Below are positions 54,201 to 60,200 of a stretch of DNA of 64,000 nt, one piece after another. The notes under the pieces are model-generated. The model saw only the letters and a list, made by a program, of their open reading frames with translations. It had not been told where the DNA came from and did not search any database. Location: contig OV277870.1 in assembly GCA_922989275.2 (NCBI GenBank), forward strand, positions 31,214,242-31,278,241. Reading direction: 5' to 3'. Source of the stretch: Gari tellinella. Lineage: Eukaryota; Mollusca; Bivalvia; Cardiida; Psammobiidae. A program made the translations under genes and the position numbers. Each line of letters begins with the position of its first letter. The stretch's first letter is position 1.

Positions 54201-57200
54201 ATTTTGTAAGATTGTCTTTTCAAACAGGCTAAAAGAAAACTAGACCACTCATAAAGATGCATTCTGCTTTGCTTTCAGCCTGCTTTAACCTATAGTTTGT
54301 TCGTTAATAAGAAATATTTTAAATAGTACATGTTTATGACTAATAAAGTGGACCTATTTTTTCAGTGGAGGAATAAATCAACAAGAGGCCCAGTGGGCCA
54401 CATTTCGCTCACCTGAGACATTGTACTATAGAAGCTGACTGGAAGACAACATTTTGATCATAATTTGATCTTGGTAGAGGACTACAATGCGAAGCTACAT
54501 GTCAGATATGGACATAATTTGAACACACTTGGTAGAGAACCAAAAGGCAAAGCTATATGTCAACTATTAAGGATCTGGGCATTACAGTTTCAGAGAAGAA
54601 GAATTTTAAAGGTTTTCCTATATAAGTCTATGTAAAACTGATAAGCCCAAGGGCGGGTCTAAATTTAATCCAGGGTTCATAATTCGAACAATCTTGGTAG
54701 AGGACCATATGGCAAAGCTACATGTCAAATATAAATGATCTGGCCCTTACTGTTTCAGAAAAGAAGATTTTTAAAGGTTTTCTTATGAAGAACTAATAAG
54801 CCCAAGGGCGGGGGCCATTTTTGCCCGGGGTTCAAACTTTGAACAATCTTGGTAGAGGACCACAAGGCAAAGCTTTATGTCAATTATTAAAGATCTTTTT
54901 AAAGGTTTTCCTATATAAGTCTATGTAAAAGTGATAAGCCCCCGTGCGGGGGCCAATTTTGACCCGCAGGTCATCATTTGAACAATCTTGGTAGAGGACT
55001 ATAAGGCAAAGCTACATGTCAAATATAAATGATCTGGGCCTTACAGTTTCAGGAGAAGATTTTTAAAGTTTTCTTATATAAGTCTATGTAAAACTGATAA
55101 GCCCCGGAGCAGGGCCAATTTTGACCTTGGGGTCATCATTTGAACAATCTTGGTAGAGGACTATAAGGCAAAGCTACATGTCAAATATAAATGATCTGGC
55201 CCTTACAGTTTCAGGAGAAGATTTTTAAAGGTTTTCCTATGAAAAACTAATAAGCCCAAGGGCGGGGCCATTTTTGGCCTGAGGGTCATAATTTGAACAA
55301 TCTTGGTAGAGGACCACAAGGCAAAGCTATATGTCAAATATTAAAGATCTGGGCCTTACAGTTGCAGAGAAGAAGATTTTTTAAAGGGTTTCCTATATAA
55401 GTCTATGTAATACTGATAAGCCCCGGGGCGTGGCCAATTTTGACCCGGGGGTCATAATTTGAACAATCTTGGTAGAGGACCATAAGGCAAAGCTACATGT
55501 CAAATATTAATGATCTAGGCCATACAGTTTCAGAGAAGAACATTTTAAAAGTTTTCCGAAGAAAAACTGATAAGCCCCAGGGCGGGGCCATTTTTGGCCC
55601 CAGGGTCAAAATTTGAACAATCTTGGTAGAAGATCATTAGGTAACTAGAGCTTGTTTTTGAGAAAAACACATGTCTCCCCCCGGTACCCCGCCCCAGCAC
55701 CCATAAGAGGAATAAATACACCCCCTGGCAACCTCCACCCTGGCACCTATAAGAGGAATACATTCATATGTCAAAATACTGACATTGTAAATTGTAAGCA
55801 ATTTATTTTCAGATTAAAATTGTGTGTATACTTACTGTGTGACATGCATATTCTCGAGTTTTGGCATTTTTAAGGAAGGAGTAGGAGTCAAATATCACAT
55901 GTCCTTATTAGTATCCTTATTTTTGCAGCCCATATGCCTATCTACATGACCATCCTCACATATAGCTGGTTCATATGTAAAAGTTTGAATGAAAACTCTT
56001 ACATAGTATAGGAGGAGTTAGCTGCACAATACTTTTTCGCTATATAATCTATATAAGGAAAAACTCCAAAGGGCCATAACTTCTGTCAAAATTGTTGGAG
56101 TCAAAATTCCAAACCACATGACCATCCTCACATATAGCTGGTACATGTGTAAAAGTTTGAAGTAAATCCCTCAAATAGTGTAGGAGGAGTTAGCTGCACA
56201 AGAATTTTTCGCTATTATACTCTATATAAGGAAAAACTACAAAGGGCCATAACTTCTGTCAAAATTGTTGCAGCCAAAACTCCAAACCACATGACCATCC
56301 TCACATATAGCTGGTACATGTGTAAAAGTTTGAAGTAAACCCCTCAAATAGTGTAGTAGGAGGAGTTGGCTGCACAAGAATTTTTCGCTATATACTCTAT
56401 ATAAGGAAAAACTACAAAGGGCCATAACTTCTGTTAAAATTGTTGCAGCCAAAATTCCAAACATGACCATCCTCACATATAGCTGGTTCATTTGTCAAAG
56501 TTTGAAGTAAATCCCTCATATAGTGTAGGAGGAGTTAGCTGCACAAGAATTTTAACAGACAGACAGACAGACAGACAGACGGACGGATGGACGGACAGAC
56601 AGAAAGCACAACACCAATATGTCACCCTCCCCTACAGGGGGAGACATAATGATACATACCAAATATCAAAGGTCTGGGCCTAGCAGTTTCTGAGAAGAAG
56701 ATTTTTTTAAGATTTTCTTATGCATTAAAAGTTGTCTATACGGTCATGTTAGAAAAACTGGCCCCTAAGCAAGGGGAATAAATCTAGCCCAAAACTTTGA
56801 ACAACATTTCGTTCCCCTTTGTCACTGATGCTTCTGACAAAGTTTGGTCAGTGGTTTCAGAGGAGATGTTGTTTGAAAATGTGGACGTACGATGGACACC
56901 GGACGACGGACGGAATGGGATCACAATAGCTCATGCTGAGCCTTCGGCTCAGGTAAGCTAAAAACATAAACAGGTGTATCTTTATAATGGGCTAATGGAT
57001 TTAACATGAAATAAAATACATTTCCCACTGTTACTAGTGCTCACCATATACTGACAAATATTGACTAACGGGATAGCCATCAAACAAGAACTGACCTGTT
57101 AGAAGTGCTCACTTTATATTGACTAATGGGATAGCCATCAAACAAGAACTGATCTGTTACTAGTGCTCACCTTATATTGACTAATGGGATAGCCATCAAA

Positions 57201-60200
57201 CAAGAACTGATCTGTTACTAGTGCTCACCTTATACAAGGGGTGTTTCATAATTAATGCAACTAGATGAATAACTTACTTTTTTCATTAGCAAAATGAGAA
57301 ATTATTATTTTTTAAAGATTGAGATTTAAAACAGCTGAGCCTTTTAATTTGAATGAAATCTTATTTATATAAAAATTCAGACATAAACTGATATATTTCA
57401 AAAACAAAGTATGGACATTTTACTTTTAAACAAGAGCCGCATGCGGCCCTAAATTGCTCTCCTGAGAAACTATTGTGTTATACTCGATGCATAATGAAGT
57501 TTGTCATTGCATGTATGTGGACTGTTGCATGAAACTGTAACAACTCGGAATTAGGTTTTCCTGTAGAAGTATTATAAAACTGATAAGCCCCGGGGCGGGG
57601 CCATTTTTGACCCTGGGGTCATGATTTGAACAATCTAGGTAGAGGACCATAAGACAAAGCTAGATGCCAAATATAAAAGGTATGGGCCTTACGGTTTCAG
57701 AGAAGAAGATTTTTAAAAGTTTTACTACATAAGTCTTTGTAAAACTTATAAGCCCCGGGGCGAGGCCATTTTTGATCCAGTGGTCATGATTTGAACAATC
57801 TTGGTAGAAGACCATAAGGCAAAGCTAGATGCCAAATATAAAAGGTCTGGGCCTTACGGTTTCAGAGAAGAAGATTTTTAAAGGTTTTCCTATATAAGTC
57901 CTATATAAAAAAGTTTTCCTATATAAGTCCTATGTAAAACTGATAAGCCCCGGGGCTGGGCCATTTTTTACCCTGGGGTCATGATTTGAACAATCTTGGT
58001 AGAGGACCATAAGATAAAGCTAGATGCCAAATATAAATTGTCTGGGCCTTACGGTTTCAGAGAAGAAGATTTTTAAAGGTTTTCCTGTATAAGTCTATGT
58101 AAAACTGATAAGCTCCGGGGCGGGGCCATTTTTGACCCTGGGGTCATGATTTGAACAATCTTAGTAGAGGTCCATAAGGCAAAGCTAGATGCTAAATATA
58201 AAAGGTCTAGGCCATACAGTTTTAGAGAAGAAGAGTTTTAAAGGATTTCCTATGAAAAACTGATAAGCCCCGGGGCAGGCCATTTTTGACCCGGGGGTCA
58301 TTATTTGAACAATCTTGCTAAAGATTTACAACATGATGCTACATGTGAAATTTGGTTATCCTAGGTCTTATAGTTATTGACAAGAAGATGTTTAAAGTTT
58401 TGACTTTAGTTGTCAATATTACGTAAATACGGAAAATGACCACGCCCTCTGGCGGCCATGTTTTTGACGGATCAAAATTCTTTGAACAATTTTGAAAGTA
58501 TATTAATTGAGAAACATTTTGGTGCAAACCAAATTGAAATCGGACCAGCAGTCGTTTTTGAGAAGAAGATTTTTTTAGATATTGTGCATGGTTGCCATGG
58601 TAACAAGACCGATTGCCCCACCCACTTTTTTTTGAAGCTCACAACTACAGTATGTATCTGACCAAGTTTGGTTAAAATTGGGCCATTGGTTGCAGAGAAG
58701 AAGTTATTTGAAACAAATTGTGAACAGACGACACCGACACGGACACCAACACCGACGTACGACAGACGGCAACCGATCACAATAGCTCACCTTGAGCACT
58801 TTGTGCTCAGGTGAGCTAAAAAGTTATTAGGTCAAAAAGTAATGTCTGAAAAGTACTATTTTCTAGTGCCCTTGAGAAGGGGTCATTTAGATAAGTATTG
58901 TGATTTATCCCGTAATGTGATCTTATCGTGCATTATACCATCGTGTAGGTGAGAAATTGCCCTTTCAAACGATATATCACACATGCATATGACAATTATT
59001 ATCTAGAAGTTATTAATGGAGTTGCATTAATTATGAAACACCCCTCGTATTGACTAATGGGATAGCCATCAAACATGGACTGATCTGTTACTTAAGTGCT
59101 CACCTTATTCTGACTAATGGGATAGCCATCAAACACGGACTGATCTGTTACTATTGCTCACCTTATTCTGACTAATGGGATAGCCTTCAAACAAGAACTG
59201 ATCTGTTACTAGTGCTCACCTTATTCTGACTAATGGGATAGCCATCAAACAAGGACTGATCTGTTAATAGTGCTCACATTATACTGACTAATGGGATAGC
59301 CATCAAACAAGGACTGGTCTGTTACTAGTGCTCGCTTTATATTGACTAATGGGATAGCCATCAAACAAGAACTGATCTGTTAATAGTGCTCATATATACT
59401 GACTAATGGGATAGCCATCAAACAAGGACTAATCTGTTACTAGTGCTGACTTTATATTGACTAATGGCCAGCAATGGGATAGCCATCAAACAAGAACTGA
59501 TCTGTTACTATTGCTCACCTTATTCTGACTAATGGGATAGCCATCAAACAAGAACTGATCTGTTACTAGTGCTCACCTTATATTGACTAATTGGATAGCC
59601 ATCAAACAAGAACTGATCTGTTACTATTGCTCACCTTATTCTGACTAATGGGATAGCCATCAAACAAGAACTGATCTGTTACTAGTGCTCACCTATACTG
59701 ACTAATGGGATAGCCATCAAACAAGGACTGATCTGTTACTAGTGCTCACCTTATACTGACTAATGGGATAGCCATCAAACAAGAACTGATCTGTTACTAG
59801 TGCTCACCTTATACTGACTAATGGGATAGCCATCAAACAAGGACTGATCTGTTACTAGTGTTCACCTTATACTGACTAATTGGATAGCCATCAAACAAGA
59901 ACTGATCTGTTACTAGTGCTCACCTTATACTGACTAATGGGATAGCCATCAAACAAGGACTGATCTGTTACTAGTGCTCACCTTATACTGACTAATGGGA
60001 TAGCCATCAAACAAGAACTGATATGTTACTAGTGCTCACCTTATACTGACTAATGGGATAGCCATCAAACAAGAACTGATCACAGCCACACACTTTGAGA
60101 ACATACGTATGACAGAAACCTTCTATACATCTCTCTGCCTCTTCCTTACTCCGACCCATGATGCGACTTCGCCGTCGAATTGTCTCAGCTATCACATCAT

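Follow-up and report, generated by a model that had tools for sequence, protein, structure and literature searches.

Minisatellites that carry copies of a splice donor have been described in several human genes, and these are the closest known systems to a tandem array found in the PIK3CA gene of the bivalve Gari tellinella, in a window of 64,000 nucleotides (31214242-31278241 of its contig) to which all coordinates below refer. In human CBS, a 31-bp variable number tandem repeat (VNTR), c.1444_1467+7(16_21), is described with 24 coding and 7 intron bases per unit, 16-21 copies and single-base differences between units (PMC2630376), and is placed at the boundary of exon 13 and intron 13 (PMC5188458). 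The VNTR in intron 18 of human ABCA7 is reported with about 12 to 427 copies of 25-bp units, the repeat starting at the GT of the real exon 18 donor; retention of one unit, out of frame, was reported at 2 +/- 1% and independent of repeat length, stop-introducing transcripts rose with nonsense-mediated decay (NMD) blocked, and skipping of the next exon depended on repeat length (PMC5954066). The minisatellite of human IFI6 (G1P3, 6-16) is described as supplying multiple splice donors, with two downstream units used and three mRNA species produced (PMC4526556; the title also PMC2572611). For human duplicated genes, 27 intron modifications by internal tandem repeats are reported, with one coding case out of frame (De Grassi and Ciccarelli 2009, PMC2812944), and a tandem duplication across a splice junction is described as copying splice signals (PMC4974935).

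The array in G. tellinella occupies 57028-60081 on the minus strand and was read from a single assembly; anchored segmentation on the unit core gave 21 units of 58 bp, the exon copy included. The unit consists of the 42 coding bases that end the RBD exon of PIK3CA and of 16 intron bases, namely the donor GTGAGC and ten more. Unit 0 (60024..60081, minus strand; 100% over 58 bases) is the exon copy and holds the real donor AAG/GTGAGC (G of GT at 60039); its coding bases are 60081-60040 (42) and its intron bases 60039-60024 (16). An earlier note on this DNA had described a tandem minisatellite of about 20 copies of a 58-bp unit made of an exon end and its own donor, had given this composition of the unit and had taken the exon itself for the first copy; the segmentation agrees with it, unit 0 coinciding with the exon end and the real donor. 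Absent from that note was the split of the array by an inserted element of 1813 bp. The proximal array (59048..60023, minus strand) comprises intronic units 1-16 and the body of unit 17, with ten decoys reading AAG/GTGAGC and one reading TAG/GTGAGC; the distal array (57028..57234, minus strand) comprises the displaced donor of unit 17 and units 18-20, with decoys AAG/GTGAGC at 57228 and 57170 and ATG/GTGAGC at 57044. Period 58 is reported by Tandem Repeats Finder at 59051-60081 (17.6 copies, score 1681) and at 57058-57234 (3.1 copies, score 319). Intronic units are 57-60 bp long, except for units 10 and 20 (68 bp) and unit 17 (cut by the insertion). The 21 units represent 18 distinct sequences, with identical pairs 1/5, 2/4 and 7/9.

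Most units keep an intact donor, as had been claimed: AG/GTGAGC is kept in 13 of the 20 intronic donors, weakened in four and effectively dead in three. Twelve intronic units carry AAG/GTGAGC, identical to the real donor, and one carries TAG/GTGAGC; weakened donors are ATG/GTGAGC (unit 20), AAG/GTGAAC (unit 3) and those with the last exon G changed (units 13 and 19); the effectively dead donors of units 10-12 have U1 pairing of -0.7 to -1.6 kcal/mol, compared with -9.6. The AAG/GTGAGC at 57228 (unit 17) is now preceded by the inserted element, not by the exon tail, and an additional weaker site, CAG/GTCAGT, is present at 57095, at the start of unit 20. Donors were scored by a weight matrix built on donor frequencies in human genes; the real donor scores 8.08 and ranks fourth among the 15 of 17 PIK3CA donors scored (range 2.0 to 8.9), e2 and e15 being below threshold or out of range.

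A TGA in frame with the RBD exon lies in the first intronic copy (60007..60009, minus strand). All 14 decoy extensions tested (14/14) reach this TGA at 60009-60007, ten codons beyond the exon, and full-length protein therefore requires the first donor. The earlier statement that decoy use would truncate the protein is thus borne out in both frame and stop. Decoy-ended exons are 309 nt and more, compared with 251 nt for the RBD exon. NMD of decoy-spliced transcripts is expected, since the TGA lies upstream of many later exon junctions. RNA folding was considered as a discriminator of the real donor and rejected, as accessibility of the donor 9-mer (RNAplfold) was similar, 0.014 at the real site and 0.004-0.053 at 16 intronic sites, with no clear difference.

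The exon that is the source of the array (60040..60290, minus strand) is 251 nt long, has the acceptor ttttccag and, at a codon boundary, closes with SQYK. A phmmer search of its product against PDB hit human PIK3CA structures (best E 1.8e-19), and identity to Mercenaria protein P0001 is 90% over residues 188-270. In a tblastn search of 164 kb around the window, residues 1-1047 of the 1050-residue Mercenaria protein were matched in the right order, except for short gaps at the edges of exons. The exons span about 96 kb and run past the window at both ends, the ATG exon being at window coordinate 78060 and the last one at -17626; from its sequence the gene looks complete. The structure match, the Mercenaria homology and the ordered exons support the naming of the gene as PIK3CA in the earlier note. 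Among the matches listed (best 120 of 576), the closest named proteins are those of Mercenaria (81%) and Mactra antiquata (79%). The next exon (YIREN..; 47268..47385, minus strand) has the acceptor TTTATTGCAG and is separated from the RBD exon by an intron of 12,654 bp. The SQYK/YIR junction is spanned by the alignments of 119 of these best 120 homologues, with which the predicted join ..SQYK/YIR.. agrees; one extra residue is present in the 17-residue stretch compared at the junction in 11 of the 119.

The unit is specific to this locus. With a two-unit query against the assembly (1,597,604,326 bases, 80 contigs), 11 of 11 genome matches fall within 57028-60081, match counts for repeats being lower bounds and very common words being skipped in the search; within the window and outside the array, the best match to the unit has just 13 bases (E 9.8). 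A dispersed satellite with chance overlap of the exon, which the earlier note had named as a finding that would speak against it, was rejected on the 11 genome matches, all of which lie at the array locus.

The inserted element (57235..59047, minus strand) is 1813 bp long, interrupts unit 17 and is flanked by a TA target-site duplication; 27 of the first 28 bases of its inverted ends match, and unit 17 is exactly 58 bp once the element and one TA are removed. A 165-bp satellite is nested within it. The end sequence is widespread in the genome, with 788 first-look candidates, of which 40 were scored and all 40 matched, this copy included. Nine relatives, chosen by similarity, were looked at, and all nine have the same end with TA directly before it. 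Eight of them have an imperfect 186-bp inverted repeat, 74-78% identical, spanning about 950 bp end to end; the copy in the array, of 1813 bp and with its nested satellite, seems to be without part of the interior. Over 93 terminal bases, 3-4 differences separate the element from each of nine of its best-scoring relatives, seven of which are mutually identical there, and for this reason it does not have the appearance of a fresh insertion.

The further a unit lies from the exon copy, the lower its identity to it (Spearman -0.65, p 0.002, counting the gaps of units 10 and 20). Two variants alternate at position 7 in units 1-6; these, together with the identical unit pairs, are what repeated multi-unit duplication would be expected to leave. 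In the intronic copies, 12 of 47 differences are at positions of the donor 9-mer, compared with 7.3 expected; 8 of 23 distinct changes fall in these sites, which make up 9 of the 58 in the unit (binomial p 0.018), and variable sites number 7 of 9 at the donor against 13 of 49 elsewhere (Fisher p 0.006). The test of donor positions was picked after the data had been inspected and compares sites within the array only, and the excess is weaker when linked changes are merged (p 0.043 or 0.094). Intact copies are mostly near the exon, and dead or weak donors cluster in units 10-13. As donor positions are unprotected, there is no sign of decoys kept for a purpose, and there is a hint of loss.

Minisatellites are dense in this region: six loci, this array included, have a period of 20-200 and at least 8 copies in 164 kb. 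Given this density, chance overlap with an exon end is expected somewhere. By rough extrapolation from the sampled region, which may be atypical, the 1.6-Gb genome would hold about 58,000 such arrays; if exon ends are assumed to number 250,000, roughly 0.9% of 58-bp units would span one, or some 500 arrays before selection. Other tandem repeats of the window include a 27-bp unit, present in a 67.7-copy array (5507-7332) and in a separate 3.1-copy array (9066-9155), the latter directly downstream of a kinase exon (9296-9177) of PIK3CA, and a 25-bp array (31741-31996) that occupies most of a short intron between an exon ending at 32017 and one starting near 31662.

Outside the array, 10 pseudo-donors of the same intron, or 0.87 per kb, equal or exceed the real donor in strength by the human matrix. 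A strong donor motif, AGGTGAGC, is found outside the array 66 times on the minus and 35 times on the plus strand of the 164 kb, with 1.3 expected per strand; the minus-strand count exceeds chance about 50-fold, and 44 of the 66 are within the gene span, on the sense strand. Its contexts recur in the 164-kb region (e.g. CAGGTGAGCTAAAAA, CAGGTGAGCGATTTAGGGCC, AAGGTGAGCTATTG); they are apparently dispersed repeats, through which strong 5' splice sites are seeded in both orientations. In a working gene, most of these pseudo-donors would have to be ignored. A weak donor, ATG/GTAGGT (score 3.7), closes the exon that ends at 15036, and 101 nt further downstream, at about 14935, there is a strong pseudo-donor.

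We consider it probable that the array is a neutrally born, decaying minisatellite that is tolerated through exon definition, the first donor being chosen. A 58-bp stretch that by chance straddled the downstream edge of the RBD exon, 5' splice site included, would have been duplicated and expanded into the intron, a birth that we infer to have been neutral. To judge from the pattern of the units, a transposon would later have hit the array, distal units would have decayed, and exon-proximal units would have turned over more recently. The 251-nt exon would be recognised from its upstream acceptor and exon body, with the first donor completing it, and this choice by the spliceosome, we propose, keeps the gene working. 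Since intact decoys share nearly all of the 42 bases and the donor, only sequence further upstream, position or the order of transcription could discriminate between them. Where a decoy is used now and then, the first being the likeliest, 58 nt with a stop would be added, and by analogy with ABCA7 the transcript would be degraded by NMD; perhaps a few per cent of decoy use occurs and is destroyed in this way. Two strong alternative sites are described as occupiable together early in assembly, a statement made of 3' sites and likened to U1 (PMC5389562).

Several observations weigh against tolerance by choice of the first donor. Donors as strong as the real one occur at 10.0 per kb in the array, compared with 0.87 in the rest of the intron, and within 3.2 kb of the RBD exon there are 15 strong pseudo-donors, including one in the inserted element, with at most 3 at each of 16 other exons checked; as pseudo-donors are far denser at the RBD exon, tolerance elsewhere is a partial guide only. 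SRSF1 is reported to favour intron-proximal sites, here the wrong ones, its effect depending on the place of binding (PMC5585400), and a duplicated 68-bp intron 7/exon 8 junction of human CBS is reported as spliced at the more distal copy (PMC2630376). The over-mutated donor positions could also reflect selection against harmful decoys. The array would then be a mildly harmful passenger, its decoys causing some mis-splicing, selection disabling them and expansion making new ones; the excess of changes at donor positions (Fisher and binomial tests above) and the cluster of dead or weak donors in units 10-13, with mostly intact copies near the exon, are in line with this. However, the test is post hoc and loses strength under stricter event counts, and most of the copies next to the exon, which could do the most harm, remain intact, so that we hold such a passenger to be unlikely.

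The earlier note had left two alternatives, reliable choice of the exon-proximal donor and tuning of PIK3CA output by unproductive splicing; the former is the one we favour, and the latter finds no positive support here, as comparison within the array shows decoy donors no better conserved than the rest of the unit and as pseudo-donors of equal strength occur elsewhere in this intron and gene. A regulatory ladder, in which decoys capture U1 and set the fraction of transcripts sent to NMD, so that array length tunes output, would agree with the 13 of 20 decoys that keep AG/GTGAGC, with the early stop in every extension tested, and with human CBS, for which more repeat units are reported with lower enzyme activity (PMC5188458). 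It seems rather improbable, however, given that decoy donors are over-mutated, those of units 10-12 being effectively dead and those of 13 and 19 weak, and that single-unit retention in ABCA7 is reported to be independent of repeat length (PMC5954066). A bolder proposal, highly doubtful in our view, joins a graded NMD valve, with a setting that drifts with copy number between individuals, to a role of the array as sequence donor homogenising a Glu/Asp residue of the RBD. Within 60040-60081 the RBD exon codes Asp, where 83 of the 119 homologues have Glu (all six best, P0001-P0006, included) and 3 have Asp (best 120 of 576), and one intronic copy, unit 15 (59202-59145), reads GAA (Glu) at the exon's Asp codon; with 174 changes possible and 23 distinct ones observed, the chance of meeting any given change is about 13%, and this is therefore a lead only. 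That the array or its copy number was made or altered by mis-assembly, as three identical unit pairs might suggest, has very little probability: the 21 units comprise 18 distinct sequences, the transposon copy inside the array, with its TA duplication, is not identical to its relatives, and the array parts, about 1.0 and 0.2 kb, are short relative to long reads.

Compared with the human systems, the array shows two features of the CBS, ABCA7 and IFI6 type, a real donor in the first unit of a tandem array and a plausible donor in most units. CBS, as described, has the same architecture, and 31, like 58, is no multiple of 3; it differs in gene and phylum, in its shorter unit with less exon sequence, and in that copy-number variation has been demonstrated. 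ABCA7 likewise repeats the real donor, and its first decoy is reported as used at a low level; its repeat starts at the donor GT, however, so that the first unit is without an exon tail, and its length-dependent effect is skipping of the next exon. IFI6 is alike in that a minisatellite supplies multiple donors and differs in that its decoys are reported to be used and its unit is shorter. The IFI6 unit is 12 bp and in frame. The repeats of De Grassi and Ciccarelli are also minisatellites at exon-intron boundaries, but occur in recent paralogues, with a mean of 4 copies of 30-bp units, and are discussed with regard to novel introns (PMC2812944); in the case of PMC4974935, the duplication lies across the intron 1/exon 2 side and gives rise to a new intron. 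As human genes provide these precedents, the architecture of the PIK3CA array is already known, and the novelty implied by the earlier note was too high. What is notable is the long exon tail in each unit, the gene and the phylum; our search found no literature treating bivalve minisatellites together with tandem repeats, introns and splice sites. By analogy with CBS and ABCA7, variation of array length between individuals is a reasonable expectation.

The array is a natural version of experiments with duplicated 5' splice sites, placing in a single intron of a major signalling gene a dozen identical donors, nearly all preceded by nearly the same 42 exon bases. Preference by position could be read there with sequence held nearly constant, and such a preference would separate exon definition and the order of transcription from site strength. 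The array also suggests that exon-boundary VNTRs of the CBS and ABCA7 kind arise outside vertebrates as well.

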